From positions 63,595-127,594 of the forward strand of contig SWJS01000003.1 of the NCBI GenBank assembly GCA_007556525.1: 64,000 bases of DNA, read 5' to 3'. The notes beneath the pieces were generated by a model, which did no database searches, was not told the DNA's origin, and saw nothing but the letters and a program-made list of their open reading frames with translations. The translations under genes were made by a program, and so were the position numbers. Below, one piece after another: positions 1 to 10,008 of the stretch. Source of the stretch: Lysobacteraceae bacterium CU05-9 (GTDB lineage Bacteria; Pseudomonadota; Gammaproteobacteria; Xanthomonadales; Xanthomonadaceae). How positions within the stretch are numbered: position 1 is the first letter of the stretch; each line of letters opens with the position of its first letter.

Positions 1-1197
1 AGGCTGCGCTTTCCGGAGTTTCAGTGCGAGTCCGGCTGGGACTCTGAATTAGGAAATATGGTGTTTGATCAAATTTCTAATAAAGATCACAACTCCGATC
101 TCCCTGTTCTTGCCATAACACAAGACCAAGGAGCGATCCCGCGGGAAATGATTGACTACCATGTTTCCGTCACTGACAAAAGCCTAGAAAGTTACAAGGT
201 GGTTGAAGTCGGTGACTTCATCATTAGCCTGCGTTCTTTTCAGGGAGGCATTGAGTTTTCTAGATATAAGGGGATTTGCAGTCCTGCTTATGTAATTCTA
301 CGACTGAGAGATGGATACTCTGCTGATTACTTTAGGCATTACCTGAAGACCGAGCGATTCATAGCCCAGATGACTAAAAACCTTGAGGGGCTTCGCGATG
401 GAAAGATGGTCAGTTTCAAGCAGTTTTCAGAGCTTGAACTACCAGTCCCTTCACACGCTGAACAACAAAAAATTGCCGACTTCCTCGACACCCTCAACGA
501 TCGAATCCGACTGGAAGCGGAAAAGCTCGATAACATGAAGAACGATCAGAGAGGCGTTATACAGCAGCTTTTCTCCGCCAACGGCGAAACCATGCCCAAG
601 CTGCGCTTTCCGGAGTTTCAGTGCGAGTCCGGCTGGGACTCTGAATTAGGAAATATGGTGTTTGATCAAATTTCTAATAAAGATCACAACTCCGATCTCC
701 CTGTTCTTGCCATAACACAAGACCAAGGAGCGATCCCGCGGGAAATGATTGACTACCATGTTTCCGTCACTGACAAAAGCCTAGAAAGTTACAAGGTGGT
801 TGAAGTCGGTGACTTCATCATTAGCCTGCGTTCTTTTCAGGGAGGCATTGAGTTTTCTAGATATAAGGGGATTTGCAGTCCTGCTTATGTAATTCTACGA
901 CTGAGAGATGGATACTCTGCTGATTACTTTAGGCATTACCTGAAGACCGAGCGATTCATAGCCCAGATGACTAAAAACCTTGAGGGGCTTCGCGATGGAA
1001 AGATGGTCAGTTTCAAGCAGTTTTCAGAGCTTGAACTACCAGTCCCTTCACGCGCTGAACAACAAAAAATTGCCGACTTCCTCGACACCCTCAATGCGAT
1101 CATAGATGCCCAGTCGCAAAAGATTGAATCACTCAAGACGTACAAAAATGGCTTAATGCAACAGATGTTCCCGAGGTTGAATGAGGTGGAAAAATGA
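1..1197 (+). CDS. hsdS: Type I restriction-modification specificity subunit HsdS (5' end outside window)
   Basis: DNA-recognition subunit of a type I restriction-modification complex. The frame is open from base 1, and the residues before the first ATG (58) read LRFPEF, the usual opening of an HsdS target-recognition domain, so the true start lies a few codons upstream and the ATG at 58 is internal. The product is two halves of about 199 residues, each a target-recognition domain followed by a helical spacer that begins AEQQKIADFLDTLN. The halves are almost identical (see the repeat entry), whereas normal HsdS proteins carry two different domains for two half-sites. The stop overlaps the next start as ATGA, so the operon is translationally coupled. 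Family assignment is firm; the symmetric structure is what is unusual. Confidence 0.93.
   Translation, partial: RLRFPEFQCESGWDSELGNMVFDQISNKDHNSDLPVLAITQDQGAIPREMIDYHVSVTDKSLESYKVVEVGDFIISLRSFQGGIEFSRYKGICSPAYVILRLRDGYSADYFRHYLKTERFIAQMTKNLEGLRDGKMVSFKQFSELELPVPSHAEQQKIADFLDTLNDRIRLEAEKLDNMKNDQRGVIQQLFSANGETMPKLRFPEFQCESGWDSELGNMVFDQISNKDHNSDLPVLAITQDQGAIPREMIDYHVSVTDKSLESYKVVEVGDFIISLRSFQGGIEFSRYKGICSPAYVILRLRDGYSADYFRHYLKTERFIAQMTKNLEGLRDGKMVSFKQFSELELPVPSRAEQQKIADFLDTLNAIIDAQSQKIESLKTYKNGLMQQMFPRLNEVEK
4..1094 (+). repeat. Tandem 597-bp duplication inside hsdS
   Basis: Bases 4-497 and 601-1094 are the same sequence offset by exactly 597 bases (199 codons). By eye I find one mismatch, at 455 versus 1052, changing His to Arg. 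The copies diverge right after the shared DFLDTLN coding segment. Frame is kept, so both recognition domains are intact. The near-identity points to a recent duplication or gene conversion, or less likely an assembly artefact. Confidence 0.95.
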
Positions 1198-2324
1198 GTA
1201 TCCAGCCAAAGCTTATTCATTTTGCCTCCTTCGACCGACTGGTTACGCGCCTCAGGGATGACTTCTATAGTGGCGGGCAGGATTTCATCTTGCTCTATGC
1301 ATACAACGGCACTGGCAAGACCAGACTTTCGATGGAGTTCAAATCTGCCGGCAAAACAAAGAACAGCGGGTCACCAGATACACTCTATTTTAATGCTTAC
1401 ACCGAAGATCTCTTTATCTGGGACAACGATCTACAAGGTGACAGCAAGCGCATCCTTCGTATGAACTCAGATTCCCGTTTTTTTTCGGGACTAAAGGATC
1501 TAGCACTTGATGAAAGTATCCAGTCCTATCTAAGCCGTTACACGGACTTCGATTTCGATATCGATTACACCGATTGGACAGTCTCGTTCCGAAAAGCCGA
1601 CGCTGAACACATCAAAGTGTCTCGTGGTGAAGAGAATATCTTCGTTTGGTGCCTATTCATGGCGATCTGCGAGCGGGTAATCGATTCGCATCCGTCCTAT
1701 GACTGGGTTGAGTACGTCTACATTGATGACCCAATCTCGTCGTTGGATGACAACAACGCCATTGCGGTTGCCAGTGATCTGGCCAAATTACTGGGGAAAG
1801 CCAAAAATCGAATCAAGGTAGTTGTCTCGTCGCATCATGCCTTGTTTTTCAACGTCGTTTGCAACGAGCTGAAAACATCGAAGACGAAGCGATATTTTCT
1901 GCATCGGCCGAAAGATAGCGGAGATTTCACGCTTCGCGCAACAGACGACACACCATTCTTCCATCACGTAGCAATGCTGAGTGAAATTCGCAAGGCCGCT
2001 GATTCGGGCAATCTCTACACATACCACTTCAATATGCTGCGCAGTATCCTTGAGAAAACGGCAACGTTCTTTGGGAAAAAGGATTTTTCGGCGTGCCTTG
2101 AAGGCGTGGAGGATGAAGCGTTATTTGCCCGTGCAATGAATCTACTGAGCCATGGCAGGTATGCGCTGTATGAGCCAACTGAGATGGGGGAAGACAACAA
2201 GCGGCTCTTCAGAGACATTCTTTCTGCGTTTCTTTCAAAGCATCAGTTTGATTTGCCCGTTCTGATAAATGAATCAATCGCAACTGCTCAGCCAGTTGCT
2301 ACAACTTCAGAGACAATACCATGA
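1194..2324 (+). CDS. prrC: PrrC-type tRNA anticodon nuclease
   Basis: Predicted anticodon nuclease that cleaves a tRNA (tRNA-Lys in the E. coli prototype) when the partner restriction enzyme is inhibited by a phage. The 376 residues are close to the 396 of E. coli PrrC. The N-terminal NTPase part has Walker A (AYNGTGKT, about 36-43), the PrrC-type segment NAYTEDLFIWDNDL (67-80), an ABC-like signature VSRGEEN (about 142-148) and Walker B YIDDPISSLDD (about 176-186). The C-terminal part keeps the nuclease triad as Arg283 and Glu287 in LRSILEKTA and His320 in LLSHG, with the spacing of E. coli Arg320/Glu324/His356. It overlaps hsdS and hsdM by ATGA on both sides. In E. coli prrC follows hsdS and precedes hsdR; here it sits between hsdS and hsdM. 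Recognition is by remembered motif comparison, not a database search. Confidence 0.88.
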   Translation: MSIQPKLIHFASFDRLVTRLRDDFYSGGQDFILLYAYNGTGKTRLSMEFKSAGKTKNSGSPDTLYFNAYTEDLFIWDNDLQGDSKRILRMNSDSRFFSGLKDLALDESIQSYLSRYTDFDFDIDYTDWTVSFRKADAEHIKVSRGEENIFVWCLFMAICERVIDSHPSYDWVEYVYIDDPISSLDDNNAIAVASDLAKLLGKAKNRIKVVVSSHHALFFNVVCNELKTSKTKRYFLHRPKDSGDFTLRATDDTPFFHHVAMLSEIRKAADSGNLYTYHFNMLRSILEKTATFFGKKDFSACLEGVEDEALFARAMNLLSHGRYALYEPTEMGEDNKRLFRDILSAFLSKHQFDLPVLINESIATAQPVATTSETIP

Positions 2325-3928
2325 CCGAAGCAGATCAAAAACAATTGGGTACCACCCTCTGGGGCATTGCCGACACATTGCGTGGTTCGATGAATGCGGA
2401 CGACTTCCGCGACTACATGCTGTCCTTCCTGTTTCTGCGCTATTTGTCTGACAATTACGAGACAGCAGCGCAGAAGGAACTAGGCTCTGACTACCCGAAG
2501 CTAGAAGCGGGCGACCGCCGGGCGCCGCTCGCGCTGTGGTATGCAGAGAACCCCGAGGATGCAACCGAGTTCGAAAGGCAGATGCGCCGAAAGACGCACT
2601 ACGTGATACAGCCCGCGTACTTATGGAGCAGCATCGCTGAGATGGCACGCACGCAAAACCGCGAGCTGCTGCAGACCCTGCAAAAGGGTTTTGTTTACAT
2701 CGAGAACGAATCCTTCGCCAGCACCTTTGGCGGGTTGTTCTCTGAAATCAATCTAAACTCAGAAAAGCTGGGCAAAAACTACACCGCGCGTAATGCGGCG
2801 CTCTGCAACGTGATCAAGGCGATTGCAGATGGTTTGGAAAAATTCTCTACCGACAAAGATATGCTGGGCGATGCTTATGAATATCTCATCGGCCAGTTTG
2901 CGGCAGGAAGCGGCAAGAAGGCGGGTGAGTTTTACACCCCGCAGCAGATTTCCAGCATCCTCTCGGGCATTGTTACCCTGGACAGTCAGGAGCCAGCCAC
3001 CGGCCAAAGGAAGCATCTGGAAAGCGTGTACGACTTCGCCTGCGGCTCAGGCTCCTTGTTGCTCAATGTGCGCCATCGGATGGGCGCAGACGGCATCGGC
3101 AAGATTGTCGGGCAGGAGAAAAACGTCACCACATACAACCTAGCGCGCATGAATATGCTGCTGCATGGGGTGAAGGATTCCGAGTTTGAGATTTATCACG
3201 GAGATACACTCACCAACGAATGGGATGCGCTGCGTGAAATGAACCCGGCCAAGATGCCGAAGTTTGATGCTGTGGTGGCCAACCCGCCGTTCAGCTATCG
3301 CTGGGAGCCGACCGAGGCGCTAGCGGACGATATGCGCTTCAAGAATTACGGATTGGCACCCAAATCGGCCGCCGATTTCGCCTTCCTGCTGCACGGCTTC
3401 CACTACCTGAAACAAGACGGTGTTATGGCTATCATCCTGCCTCATGGCGTGCTGTTCCGCGGTGGTGCGGAAGAGCGAATCCGTACCAAGCTGCTGAAGG
3501 ACGGTCATATCGACACAGTGATCGGCCTTCCTGCCAACTTGTTCTTCTCCACCGGTATCCCAGTCTGCATTCTGGTGCTGAAGAAGTGCAAGAAGCCCGA
3601 CGACGTGTTGTTCATCAATGCCGCCCAAAACTTCGAGAAAGGCAAGCGGCAGAATAGGCTGCTGCCGGAACACATCGACAAGATCCTCGACACCTACCAA
3701 CACCGCCGGGAAGAAGAGCGCTATTCGATGCGTGTATCGATGGAGCGCATCGAGAAAGAAGGCTACAACCTGAACATCTCGCGCTACGTGAATACAGCAG
3801 AGGTTGAAGAAGAAGTTGACCTGCGGGCGGTGCATTCGGAACTGGTTTCGCTCGACCAAAAGATTGACGCAGCCACCAAGCGACATAACGAGTTCCTCAA
3901 GGAACTGGGTCTGCCGTTGCTGCCGTGA
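2321..3928 (+). CDS. hsdM: Type I restriction-modification methyltransferase subunit HsdM
   Basis: N6-adenine DNA methyltransferase subunit that works with HsdS to protect host DNA and, with HsdR, forms the restriction complex. It is 535 residues, full length. The N-terminal HsdM helical domain covers about 1-150. The Rossmann-type methyltransferase domain has GEFYTP (about 202-207), the S-adenosylmethionine motif FACGSG (about 239-244) and the catalytic NPPF (about 321-324). The start is the ATG of the ATGA overlap with prrC, so S, C and M are likely made from one message. HsdR is absent from the window and probably lies upstream. Confidence 0.97.
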   Translation: MTEADQKQLGTTLWGIADTLRGSMNADDFRDYMLSFLFLRYLSDNYETAAQKELGSDYPKLEAGDRRAPLALWYAENPEDATEFERQMRRKTHYVIQPAYLWSSIAEMARTQNRELLQTLQKGFVYIENESFASTFGGLFSEINLNSEKLGKNYTARNAALCNVIKAIADGLEKFSTDKDMLGDAYEYLIGQFAAGSGKKAGEFYTPQQISSILSGIVTLDSQEPATGQRKHLESVYDFACGSGSLLLNVRHRMGADGIGKIVGQEKNVTTYNLARMNMLLHGVKDSEFEIYHGDTLTNEWDALREMNPAKMPKFDAVVANPPFSYRWEPTEALADDMRFKNYGLAPKSAADFAFLLHGFHYLKQDGVMAIILPHGVLFRGGAEERIRTKLLKDGHIDTVIGLPANLFFSTGIPVCILVLKKCKKPDDVLFINAAQNFEKGKRQNRLLPEHIDKILDTYQHRREEERYSMRVSMERIEKEGYNLNISRYVNTAEVEEEVDLRAVHSELVSLDQKIDAATKRHNEFLKELGLPLLP

Positions 3929-3938
3929 TGGAGGTCCT

Positions 3939-5168
3939 GTGAACGCCAGGAATTACTTCTCCACCGTCGCGAGCAAGATGGGGCAGATAGAAGCCGATCG
4001 CGCTTCTTGGCGGGAAGCGCTTGCTCCGACTGATTTTTTCGCCAGACAAGTTCGAGACTTGTCGCAAATGAGTCTCGCGTCCGAGCAGATTTCCAAAGCA
4101 ATGAAGGCGTTGCATTCGCCTGCAATAACAATTGCGCAGCAGTACCAAGACCAGCTATCTGCAAATTCTTCAGCCATGAAAGCGGTCATGGCTTGGCAGG
4201 ATGCCGAACGCATTCAGAGCGATCAAATGCGCCGGATGATCGATCATATGGATGCTATACGCAAGAGTATTCTTGCGAGCAACGCAACTCAAAAGTTCGT
4301 CAGAGAGTTTACAGCAGCCAGTTCAATTGAAGATCACATGATGAAGCTGGCAAATCAGTACTCTGGCATCAGTACATATGCGGAAACACTTGCACTCAAA
4401 GCCCATCAGTCGCGGGAGCAGTCCCGGCGGCTTCTCGATATCGTGAAGCGTTCTAACAGCATCCAGACCTACCTCAACGAGTTTGAGACCGTCAACAAGC
4501 AGTGGAAGGTTCCCAATGAGGTGTTGGGCCTCGTCGGCTCCTTCAAGGAAATTCAAGAGCAGCTAGGTAGAGTCGCTTTGCCGACCATCGACTGGGGATC
4601 TGCTGGAGCATTGGCACATCTGCTGGGGCAAGAAGGCATCGAAGAGCAGCTGACTCTCGTCGGCATTATGCCCGATGGCACAATGCATATGCCCTGTGAG
4701 ATGCAGGAACGAGGCATCTTCAGTCGCCAACGGCCCGACCCCTTATCTCTTGTAAGTCTTTTGCTGACAATCTTGATTTTCATTTATCAAGAGGTATCGA
4801 ACCTGCAAGAATTGGCCAGGGCTGAAGCATTTCAGGCGCAGACGACAGCAAGGTTGCAGGTTCAGTCCCAGCAGATTCTAAACCTCACAGTTCTTATTGA
4901 ACAGGCGCTCACGCAAGCCGCTCATCGACCCGAGGAACGTTTTGTTGTACGTGAGCGAACCGCAACTGTGAGGACAGAGCCTGAACACGGAGCTTCTGTT
5001 GAAGCGAAGCTGCTGCCCAACGAAGTTATGCGTTCAGTTGATCGCAAGGGGCGCTGGGTTGAGGTCGAGTACTATCACTGGTTGCACGAGCAGTACCGCA
5101 CCGGATGGGTCTTGAAGCATTACTTGGAACGTGTTCCCTCAAGTTATTCGACAAACGACGAGGAATAG
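3939..5168 (+). CDS. Membrane-anchored protein with C-terminal SH3 domain
   Basis: Function unknown. I start it at the GTG at 3939, preceded by GGAGG at 3930-3934, because the longer frame runs into the hsdM end; this gives 409 residues. The first about 270 residues are charged and helical with many Gln and Ser, coiled-coil-like. One hydrophobic segment follows (LSLVSLLLTILIFIY), then a helical linker and a C-terminal bacterial SH3-like domain (VRTEPEHGASVEAKLLP, then GRWVEVEY and GWVLKHYL). Ten bases downstream of hsdM, it is probably in the same operon and a candidate accessory factor of the defence locus. It is not HsdR; no helicase or nuclease motif is visible. Confidence 0.75.
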   Translation: MNARNYFSTVASKMGQIEADRASWREALAPTDFFARQVRDLSQMSLASEQISKAMKALHSPAITIAQQYQDQLSANSSAMKAVMAWQDAERIQSDQMRRMIDHMDAIRKSILASNATQKFVREFTAASSIEDHMMKLANQYSGISTYAETLALKAHQSREQSRRLLDIVKRSNSIQTYLNEFETVNKQWKVPNEVLGLVGSFKEIQEQLGRVALPTIDWGSAGALAHLLGQEGIEEQLTLVGIMPDGTMHMPCEMQERGIFSRQRPDPLSLVSLLLTILIFIYQEVSNLQELARAEAFQAQTTARLQVQSQQILNLTVLIEQALTQAAHRPEERFVVRERTATVRTEPEHGASVEAKLLPNEVMRSVDRKGRWVEVEYYHWLHEQYRTGWVLKHYLERVPSSYSTNDEE

Positions 5169-5448: not shown

Positions 5449-6183
5449 TTAATCGTCAAGCAGATCATTCAGCCAGTGCTGGTATGCAATGTTGTCTGCG
5501 ATTGTCTTTTCGTGCTCAGCAAGCATGGTAGCTCGGGATGCGTATATTTCACTCAGGACAGACTCTCTTTCTTCAGGATTGTCGATCAACCATGCAATCT
5601 CGACGCGCTGTGCCGCGGCTTCTTTCGTAGCTTCACATTGGGAGACCGCGTCAAAAATTGCCAACCCGACATCCTTATCGCAACGAAAGACCTCTCTAGA
5701 AAGTTGTTGGCGGCCGCCTTTCTGGTAATTTCTCCTTTCCATGAAGGGCGACAGTAGAGAATGAACCTTGAACTCTTCGGCGCCTGATTCTTCAGCGAAA
5801 TAATGCGAAATGAGCACCCAATCACTCGCACCGGCATAGGAATGTTTGCACAGATCATCAACGCGGTCGAAAGAGTCGGTCGCTTGTCCGACCTTGCAGA
5901 GTCCCTCAGTGTCGCTGTATGCAAAGTAGACATATCCAGGTGCACCATGCCGTTTCTGAAAAGCAATCTTGCTTGTATCACATTGAATGCAGTGACCTGC
6001 TCGCGTTTTCAGGCGGTGTCCATAAGTGCATGGATTGTGATAAACAAAATCACAGCCATGATCCTTTGCCACCCACCCGTAGTCAGCCTTCTTTACACCT
6101 CTGGCATCAAGTACCGATGAAGTTCTAATTCCTTGGGACTGGAGAAATACTAACTCCTCGGGAGAAAATTCAGATTCTTGCAT
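5449..6183 (-). CDS. T5orf172/GIY-YIG-like nuclease-domain protein
   Basis: A 244-residue protein. Residues 83-101 read GYVYFAYS then KVGQA, the signature pair of the T5orf172 (MUG113) branch of the GIY-YIG nuclease superfamily, followed by a helical part with FKVHSLL where the metal-binding Glu region is expected. Before it is a cysteine-rich patch (C52, H55, C65, C68) that may bind zinc. The C-terminus is helical and charged. GIY-YIG relatives cut DNA in phage, mobile-element and defence contexts; activity here is inferred from the fold only. It is encoded opposite to the hsd operon at the edge of the defence locus, with 280 bases between containing no gene I can support. Confidence 0.7.
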   Translation of the reverse strand: MQESEFSPEELVFLQSQGIRTSSVLDARGVKKADYGWVAKDHGCDFVYHNPCTYGHRLKTRAGHCIQCDTSKIAFQKRHGAPGYVYFAYSDTEGLCKVGQATDSFDRVDDLCKHSYAGASDWVLISHYFAEESGAEEFKVHSLLSPFMERRNYQKGGRQQLSREVFRCDKDVGLAIFDAVSQCEATKEAAAQRVEIAWLIDNPEERESVLSEIYASRATMLAEHEKTIADNIAYQHWLNDLLDD

Positions 6184-7760: not shown

Positions 7761-8375
7761 GTGGGGAGATTGAAATTTGCGGCGGTGGTTTTGGCGGTGA
7801 TTGTGGGTTTGGTCGGGTGCCAAAAGCAGTCCGCGGGTGATGTGGACGCGGCGAAGGCGGCGGATGCGACGCATTTTGCGAATGCGGAAATCGAGAGGAT
7901 TAGGGCGGAGGCGAAGCGGCGGTACCCGCATTTGAGTGAGGACGAGGCGATCAAGATCGTCGCGGACGAGGCGGGGGAGCGCAGGCTGTCGGAGGGGAGC
8001 GAGGCGGAGCGGAAAGTCACGGCAGCGAGTGCCTTCATGGCGGTCTACGTGAAGCACACAGAGGCGTACGTGTCGGTGTGCCGGGATTTCGGGGTGGATG
8101 TGTCGGGTTTTGGGTCGGCGGTTTCGCGGCGGTTTGCCGGTGAGAGGGCGAGGGCGATGTCGATTTTGGGCGATGCGGGCGCGAATGAAACGGTTTTGCG
8201 AACGTTGTGGGACAACATGATGCCGACGATCGTCAGCACGACGCAGCGGGAGCTGACGCAGATGGCTCCCGGTGGTCCTGAGGAGGCCTGCGAGGTTTTG
8301 CGGGATGAGCCGCAGGAAGTTGCGGAGTCGATTGAGTTGCATAAAACGTTGACGGAGGTTTTGCAGGCGCCATGA
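7761..8375 (+). CDS. Lipoprotein of unknown function
   Basis: I start at GTG 7761 (GTG 7758 is equally possible), eight bases after a perfect AGGAGG (7747-7752). The N-terminus LKFAAVVLAVIVGLVGCQK is a lipoprotein signal with lipobox LVGC. The mature part is about 185 residues, mostly helical and charged, with many Ala, Glu and Arg, and a single further Cys pair region (SVCRDF, EEACEVL). No domain recognised. It overlaps the next gene by four bases (ATGA), so the two are a transcription unit. It lies between the two 58-bp repeats. Confidence 0.72.
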   Translation: MGRLKFAAVVLAVIVGLVGCQKQSAGDVDAAKAADATHFANAEIERIRAEAKRRYPHLSEDEAIKIVADEAGERRLSEGSEAERKVTAASAFMAVYVKHTEAYVSVCRDFGVDVSGFGSAVSRRFAGERARAMSILGDAGANETVLRTLWDNMMPTIVSTTQRELTQMAPGGPEEACEVLRDEPQEVAESIELHKTLTEVLQAP

Positions 8376-8761
8376 AAGTTGAGTTGAAGCAGCAGTTGTT
8401 CGAAAAATATCCGCGTATGTTCCCGGGGTCTGCTCAGCCGGGGGCGGCGGCGATTGGGCGGGCGATCACGGTGGGGGATGGGTGGTTTGGGCTGGTGGAT
8501 GTTTTGTGTGAGCAGTTGCAGGGTGAGACGGACCAAAACGGTGCGCCGCAAGTCGTCGTGTCGGAGGTCAAGGAGAAGTATGGGGAGTTGCGGTTTTATG
8601 TGGGCTCGGCCAGTGAGCGGCAGGAGGCGATGATCGAGTTCGCGGAGGCGTTGTCGTGTCGCGTGTGTGAGGCGTGCGGTTCACCGGGGTCGGTGCGGTC
8701 GTCGACGGGGTGGTATGCGACGCGGTGTGATGAGCATGCGGGAGCGCGCGGCGCGCCGTGA
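8372..8761 (+). CDS. Conserved hypothetical protein with C-terminal Cys/His cluster
   Basis: 129 residues. The pattern FEKYPRMF at the N-terminus, GDGWFGLVD in the middle, VKEKYGELRFYV, and a final cluster CRVCEACGSPG ... GWYATRCDEH match a widespread uncharacterised proteobacterial family often found in accessory and phage-derived regions. The cysteines and histidine could form a zinc site. It is coupled to the lipoprotein gene by an ATGA overlap. The high G content and GTG/GCG-rich codon use match its partner gene and differ from the core genes later in the window. Confidence 0.72.
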   Translation: MKVELKQQLFEKYPRMFPGSAQPGAAAIGRAITVGDGWFGLVDVLCEQLQGETDQNGAPQVVVSEVKEKYGELRFYVGSASERQEAMIEFAEALSCRVCEACGSPGSVRSSTGWYATRCDEHAGARGAP

Positions 8762-8800
8762 GACGGTGGGGTGTGGCGCGTGGCGGTGCGCGGGGAGTTG

Positions 8801-8858
8801 TCGCATTTTTCGGGTGTCACAAATGTAGCCAAAATCCCCGAAATGGTTGCGAAATGGT
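8801..8858 (+). repeat. 58-bp direct repeat, copy 2
   Basis: Second copy of the repeat at 7677-7734. Its final element GAAATGGTTGC is followed at once by a second copy of the same 11 bases. It lies in the about 300-base gap before the toxin-antitoxin promoter, which otherwise holds no gene I can support. Confidence 0.85.
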
Positions 8859-9003
8859 TGCGAAAACCTGGCCGAGATAAGCCGGACTCGCTGAAGACTG
8901 TTCCGGTCGATTTGGAATCTGAACGAACTATTCGGTAACTCCGAATGGTTCAAATCGTGGCGGCTCAATGTGTGTAGCGTGCGTGATTGCGAGGCGTAAA
9001 TTT

Positions 9004-9043
9004 TTGACAAGAATTTGAATGTACGGTAAAATTACCGTACATT
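9004..9043 (+). promoter_or_regulatory. Toxin-antitoxin promoter with overlapping operator
   Basis: A near-consensus promoter: TTGACA (9004-9009), 17-base spacer, TAAAAT (9027-9032). A perfect inverted repeat, AATGTACGGTAA (9018-9029) and TTACCGTACATT (9032-9043), covers the -10 box. This is the standard layout for autorepression by an antitoxin or toxin-antitoxin complex. Confidence 0.85.
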
Positions 9044-9060
9044 AATTTGGAGCGGTGAGG

Positions 9061-9366
9061 GTGACAATTTCGACTGATCGTTTGGATATCCGTCTTTCGG
9101 CGGAGGATAAGGATTACATTCGGCTTGCGGCGGAGGCAGTGGGTGCGCCCGTGGCGTCGTTTGTGAGGGAGGCGGCGATGAGTTATGCGGTGGAGGTTTT
9201 GGGTAAGCCTGTCCATAGTGAGAAGAAGAAGCCTGCGCGAGACGACCGGCCGCTTTCAGAGCGGATGCGAGGTAAGGCGACGTGGGCGCGTCGGATGCGT
9301 GGGACTGCGGGACCTGGGTTGACGACGGATGAGATCATGAAGTTGATGCGCGATTACGGGAAGTGA
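9061..9366 (+). CDS. Antitoxin of a VapBC-like pair
   Basis: About 101 residues. GTG 9061 is preferred because GGAG at 9049-9052 is eight bases upstream; GTG 9055 is an alternative. The N-terminus reads TISTDRLDIRLSAEDKDYIR followed by VASFVREAAM, the pattern of DUF1778/ribbon-helix-helix antitoxins that bind DNA as dimers. The C-terminus is basic and likely wraps the toxin. The stop overlaps the toxin start (GTGA). With the palindrome upstream, it most likely represses its own operon. Confidence 0.78.
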   Translation: MTISTDRLDIRLSAEDKDYIRLAAEAVGAPVASFVREAAMSYAVEVLGKPVHSEKKKPARDDRPLSERMRGKATWARRMRGTAGPGLTTDEIMKLMRDYGK

Positions 9367-9788
9367 ATGTGTCCCGTGTTCTGGTGGACGCCAATGTGTT
9401 GCTGGATGTGTTGACGGATGATCCGCGTTGGTTCGAATGGTCCGCATCGCAAATTGAGAAATTGGAAGGGGAATACGAGCTCTGTATTAATCCGCTGATT
9501 TACGCGGAAGTGTCGGTTCGTTATGACACTATCGAAGCATTGGAAGCTGCGTTGCCTGAGAGCGAGTTCAATCGCGTGGAGTTGCCGTGGGCGGCGGGGT
9601 TTTTGGCGGGTAAGGCATATCTGGATTATCGCCGTCGACGTGGCGTACGTCGGTCGCCATTGGCTGATTTTTATATCGGTGCGCACGCAGCGATATCGGG
9701 GATGGCGTTGTTGACGCGTGATGCGGCTAGGTACCGGACCTACTTTCCGACGGTTGAGATCATCGCGCCGGATGGTGGTGGCGAGTAG
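9363..9788 (+). CDS. vapC: PIN-domain toxin (VapC-like ribonuclease)
   Basis: 141-residue PIN-domain endoribonuclease predicted to cleave RNA unless bound by the antitoxin encoded just upstream. The acidic metal-binding set is visible: Asp9 in LVDANVLLD, Glu49 in LIYAEV, Asp102 in LADFYIG and Asp120 in LLTRDAARY. It starts at GTG 9363, overlapping the antitoxin stop by four bases. Family assignment is firm; the RNA target cannot be read from sequence. Confidence 0.9.
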   Translation: MNVSRVLVDANVLLDVLTDDPRWFEWSASQIEKLEGEYELCINPLIYAEVSVRYDTIEALEAALPESEFNRVELPWAAGFLAGKAYLDYRRRRGVRRSPLADFYIGAHAAISGMALLTRDAARYRTYFPTVEIIAPDGGGE

Positions 9789-9819
9789 CATTTTCAGTCT
9801 GTGTTTAGAGGTTTCAGTG

Positions 9820-10008
9820 ATGAATCAGTTGAACGAATTTGGTGATGATGAAGTTGTCGGGAAGTTTCTCAAGCTGCTCGCGAAAGACATTGCGATGCAT
9901 CCGGAGCGTTTGCACAAGATGGATTCGCAGTTGACGGACTTGTTGCTCGGCTTGACGGCTGATGTCGATTTTGATTTGGACGAGCCGTTGGATCCTGCGA
10001 ACGAGTAG
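9820..10008 (+). CDS. Small PrlF-C-terminus-like protein
   Basis: 62 residues from ATG 9820. The sequence VVGKFLKLLAKDIAMHPERL followed by VDFDLDEPLDPANE resembles the C-terminal half of PrlF/SohA-type antitoxins, which normally carry an N-terminal AbrB-like DNA-binding domain that is missing here. No YhaV-type toxin is adjacent. It may be a standalone neutraliser, a truncated antitoxin, or part of the VapC operon, whose stop is 31 bases upstream. The resemblance is from memory and the function is uncertain. Confidence 0.6.
   Translation: MNQLNEFGDDEVVGKFLKLLAKDIAMHPERLHKMDSQLTDLLLGLTADVDFDLDEPLDPANE

Follow-up and report, generated by a model that had tools for sequence, protein, structure and literature searches.

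The first 3928 positions of the analyzed stretch of DNA very probably belong to an ordinary chromosomal restriction–modification operon of type IC-like kind, which carries a PrrC anticodon nuclease and represents the lineage with the gene order hsdR-hsdS-prrC-hsdM (R-S-C-M); we put the probability of this reading at about 0.88. The stretch, called here the window, is 64,000 nucleotides long and comes from a contig of Lysobacteraceae bacterium CU05-9 that is 320,681 bases long; the 2.35-Mb genome is assembled in 15 contigs. The list of open reading frames showed that three plus-strand genes fill positions 1–3928, which are the 3′ part of hsdS (1–1197), prrC (1194–2324, 376 aa), and hsdM, encoding the type I methyltransferase subunit (2321–3928, 535 aa). 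As described in the original prediction, which had been made from the letters of the window, the genes follow each other in the order S-C-M and are joined on both sides of prrC by four-base ATGA overlaps, within AAATGAG at the hsdS/prrC junction (1194–1197) and within CCATGAC at the prrC/hsdM junction (2321–2324). The HsdS protein matched Methylase_S in two stretches, as well as the PADLOC Specificity_I model, while the hsdM product scored above the NCBIfam hsdM equivalog cut-off (TIGR00497) and also matched N6_Mtase and HsdM_N. The original prediction had proposed looking for hsdR upstream of the window, and an intact hsdR of 1000 aa was indeed found there, at about window −3280 to −278, with HSDR_N, SWI2/SNF2, and EcoR124_C matches (E 2.2e-64 for the last). 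The genes hsdR and hsdS overlap, as hsdS starts at about window −289, 11 bases before hsdR ends.

EcoR124 is a type IC enzyme, and complementation is the classical criterion for this type. Because the EcoR124-type hsdR lies directly upstream of the window, the operon is read as hsdR-hsdS-prrC-hsdM, and these data suggest that all parts of a type IC restriction–modification system are present, namely an HsdR of the EcoR124 kind, HsdM, and HsdS. The prrC gene is thus linked to a type IC hsd locus, in which an hsdR with the EcoR124_C domain is found together with the adjoining hsdS and hsdM, and such linkage has been reported to be invariable (PMC3874168). Upstream of hsdR and in the same direction (8055–9937 of locus L002, about 0.4–2.3 kb away) are genes for a 218-aa protein that matched nothing in Pfam and for a protein with helix-turn-helix and IrrE-like metallopeptidase (M78) domains, either of which could be a regulator. 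The gene directly after hsdM (about 3948–5168) gave a weak bacterial SH3 domain match, just below the cut-off, and a T5orf172 domain protein is encoded on the minus strand at 5449–6183.

The one unusual feature of the locus is the near identity of the two halves of hsdS. The first target-recognition domain (3–497) and the second one (595–1094) are 98.8% identical in protein sequence, and their DNA is the same over about 450 bases and differs at the ends alone, while in 56 further HsdS proteins that could be aligned comparably the half-to-half identity had a median of 33% and reached at most 38%. The closest relative of the repeated domain is the N-terminal domain of a prrC-adjoining HsdS from Hydrogenophaga taeniospiralis (67% identity, L033), which suggests overwriting of the C-terminal domain by a copy of the N-terminal one, and hence a recent N-to-C copy probably made the halves equal. 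Since the recognition domains are near-identical, a symmetric target is predicted. The movement of such domains is known from Helicobacter pylori, in which two copies of a single domain occur in one type IIG allele (PMC3077401). Symmetric targets, as predicted where both recognition domains are the same, are seen with truncated EcoR124I and EcoDXXI and with NgoAV, which in 2013 was the only natural type I system listed as palindromic; however, these systems use half-length S subunits that pair, in contrast to the HsdS described here, which is a full-length fused chain with two copies of one domain (PMC3874165). We give about an even chance to the further proposal that PrrC guards a type IC enzyme with such a single-chain, full-length HsdS, formed by a recent N-over-C copy and directed to a palindromic bipartite site. 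A second Methylase_S match, perhaps from another type I or a type IIG system, is located outside the window in the same genome (G000:C9:205463–205810).

An assembly gap of 97 N interrupts hsdS at window −97 to 0, immediately ahead of the first letter of the window, so that hsdS is incomplete within the window, a point which was absent from the original prediction. The same 127 bases are present on both sides of the gap (L002 13372–13722, window −224 to 127), so that the gap looks like a joint left unmerged by the assembly, with no sequence missing and with a reading frame that would continue across it. The possibility that these 127 bases mark a third repeat of hsdS, located ahead of the window, was rejected in favor of the assembly joint. 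A simple artifact of the hsdS repeat is argued against by the fact that the starts and the ends of both copies differ and are assembled; a repeat of such length beside a scaffold gap could be an artifact, and the twin domains are provisional and need resequencing. The gap and the near-identical halves could also be taken to mean that hsdS is damaged or misassembled and the system inactive, with prrC left as a relic or as an unregulated gene, and PrrC orthologs tied to a cryptic restriction–modification system are indeed known to be without anticodon nuclease (ACNase) activity (PMC3874168). This explanation is very unlikely, because identical bases on the two sides of a gap are the usual sign of an unmerged joint, the frame is kept, and hsdR, prrC, and hsdM are open, as is hsdS wherever it can be read.

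To place the R-S-C-M order, relatives were collected by a scan with a nine-protein PrrC alignment, using one genome per species, and among at least 557 relatives the best 80 were fetched with their flanks and their R, M, S, and C genes labeled by iterated profiles. The data showed a plain R-S-C-M order in 64 of 81 loci (these best 80 of at least 557, which are close to the query by choice, and the window locus), most of the others being cut by contig ends, and the labeled gene after prrC was hsdM in all 77 loci of the same set where it could be counted. Among the loci fetched, the R-S-C-M order was counted in 73, a four-base ATGA overlap between hsdS and prrC was present in 53, and the sole complete order seen besides R-S-C-M and M-S-C-R was R-C-M-S, in two Bacteroidota loci (L048, L083). 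A fairer sample came from 398 genomes drawn evenly across the phylum, of which 17, the source genome included, gave a PrrC match. The 14 other prr loci typed in this draw were divided equally, with seven in the M-S-C-R order of Escherichia coli and seven in the R-S-C-M order. In a tree of 49 PrrC proteins a branch with an SH-aLRT support of 100 separated all those from M-S-C-R loci from all others, so that the gene order switches once on the tree, between two deep branches. The PrrC proteins of these two branches are about 33% identical to each other, and a single PADLOC PrrC model scores both alike. Hence, R-S-C-M is the standard order in one entire deep PrrC branch and is normal for about half of the family.

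The original prediction that the order differs from that of the prototype is correct with respect to EcoprrI, which is arranged as hsdM-hsdS-prrC-hsdR (PMC3014915), but the difference is not special to this locus, and the idea of a unique order was rejected, both on the order in the relatives and on the already characterized R-S-C-M arrangement of the PrrC170 system (PMC11555353). Similarly, prrC does have the position between hsdS and hsdM that had been described as an insertion, but it is better read as part of a conserved pair: hsdS followed by prrC is a stable unit, while hsdR and hsdM have exchanged their flanking positions between two old lineages. It had further been proposed that this placement couples the dose of the nuclease to both S and M, which the ATGA overlaps flanking prrC on both sides could favor. 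Such a special arrangement is very unlikely, because the R-S-C-M order is general in its PrrC branch, prrC follows hsdS in the E. coli prototype too, and in several relatives extra genes separate prrC from hsdM, or hsdS from prrC. The loci with extra operon genes in the prrC–hsdM gap or around hsdS are L055, L080, L059, L086, L040, and L036, and the genes encode proteins of the RhuM family, a YhcG/DUF1016-type PDDEXK nuclease, or Fic.

The assignment of the middle gene, for which a PrrC-family protein with NTPase motifs had been predicted, was confirmed by a profile search, in which the protein matched the PADLOC PrrC model over residues 10–355 of 376 (E 4.6e-139, 461.6 bits), and Pfam AAA_13 was also matched above the cut-off. 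In the protein an ABC-ATPase domain precedes an anticodon-nuclease (HEPN-type) domain, which contains the predicted triad of Arg283, Glu287, and His320. This triad aligns with Arg320, Glu324, and His356 of E. coli B1 PrrC and is invariant in an alignment of 65 sequences; among 96 homologs the arginine and the glutamate were each present in 96 and the histidine in 94. The motifs NGTGKT, SRGEE, and YIDDP, and H214, which make up the Walker A, signature, Walker B, and H-motif set of the ABC-ATPase, are conserved in the alignment, and a block of the N-domain, YFNAYTEDLFIWDND, a candidate PrrC box, is conserved in all the PrrC proteins compared. Within Walker A (position 39 of the window protein), 27 of the 96 relatives have NRTGKT in place of NGTGKT, which is unusual for a phosphate-binding loop. 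An AlphaFold model had a mean pLDDT of 81.6 and an ABC-type fold. Judged by these features, the middle gene is predicted to encode a typical bacterial PrrC anticodon nuclease, of the “suicide” tRNA-cutting family, within a restriction operon.

Weaker matches to the PDC-S06 (E 6.8e-15) and LmuB profiles, and PtuA and Rad50 at the top of the Foldseek list for the model, could speak for RloC or another ABC-ATPase defense protein, of the Septu PtuA-like or the PDC-S06-like kind. Such an identity is highly improbable, because the PrrC match is more than 400 bits stronger, and the fold hits have in common with the model the ABC core alone, at a low TM-score; a sequence search of the PDB with the window protein, or with a profile of nine PrrC proteins, found no solved PrrC structure. 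The RloC and Septu-like identities were rejected on the profile scores and on a missing insert: RloC shares its ABC motifs and its nuclease triad with the window PrrC, but the long coiled-coil/zinc-hook insert in the ATPase domain of RloC is missing from the 376-aa protein, which aligns lengthwise with E. coli PrrC. The type I operon setting is also rare for RloC (PMC2610378).

By analogy with the characterized relatives EcoPrrC and PrrC170, HsdR, HsdM, and HsdS would form the restriction enzyme, and PrrC would be held silent on this complex. A phage product or an anti-restriction protein that disables the enzyme would release PrrC, and the freed nuclease would cut host tRNA in the anticodon loop, which would stop translation and abort the infection. 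The tRNA cut is likely to be tRNA-Lys if the analogy holds, although this is less certain than the other steps. In E. coli PrrC, residues 284–294, with Asp287, form the segment that contacts the tRNA-Lys anticodon, and this segment varies within the family (PMC3014915). Its counterpart in the branch studied here, TDDT--PFFHHV, is two residues shorter and otherwise different, with an aspartate of the window PrrC aligned at or near Asp287. Because the segment for tRNA-Lys recognition is shorter and different, the tRNA that is cut may differ from that in E. coli.

The EcoprrI PrrC resembles the window protein in having an ABC-ATPase and a nuclease domain with the Arg/Glu/His triad, in being encoded right after hsdS, and in its type IC partner, while it differs in the exchanged positions of hsdR and hsdM, in the tRNA-recognition segment, and in belonging to the other PrrC branch. 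The system of PrrC170 from Klebsiella quasipneumoniae consists of HsdR, HsdS, PrrC, and HsdM and has been cloned; it was shown in 2024 to be antiphage, with activity against phages T1 and T7. Expression of its PrrC by itself halts growth, and the nuclease targets tRNA-Lys and is 35% identical to EcoPrrC (PMC11555353). The likeness to the operon described here lies in the same four genes in the same listed order and in a PrrC that is about one-third identical to EcoPrrC, as is the window protein, while the organism and HsdS are different, and the activity and the tRNA-Lys target were measured for PrrC170 and are predicted for the window locus. From its gene order and its identity to EcoPrrC, PrrC170 presumably belongs to the R-S-C-M branch.

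These data suggest a changed view of the PrrC family, in which the prototype order hsdM-hsdS-prrC-hsdR is one of two arrangements, equally common in the even sample, each with a deep PrrC branch of its own. The R-S-C-M branch is widespread and includes enterobacterial plasmids, as its PrrC proteins were found on plasmids of Klebsiella and E. coli, some of them conjugative; on the IncC plasmid pNDM102337 (L131) the order is R, two other genes, S, C, and M. The ten best plasmid matches of this branch are all labeled “AAA family ATPase,” whereas among the six best E. coli matches to a prrC of the M-S-C-R order five are labeled anticodon nuclease, and hence part of the PrrC family may be hidden by its labels. 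With regard to the restriction enzyme itself, the identical recognition domains of this HsdS would make it possible to examine directly whether, in nature, a fused type I S subunit can function with two equal halves.
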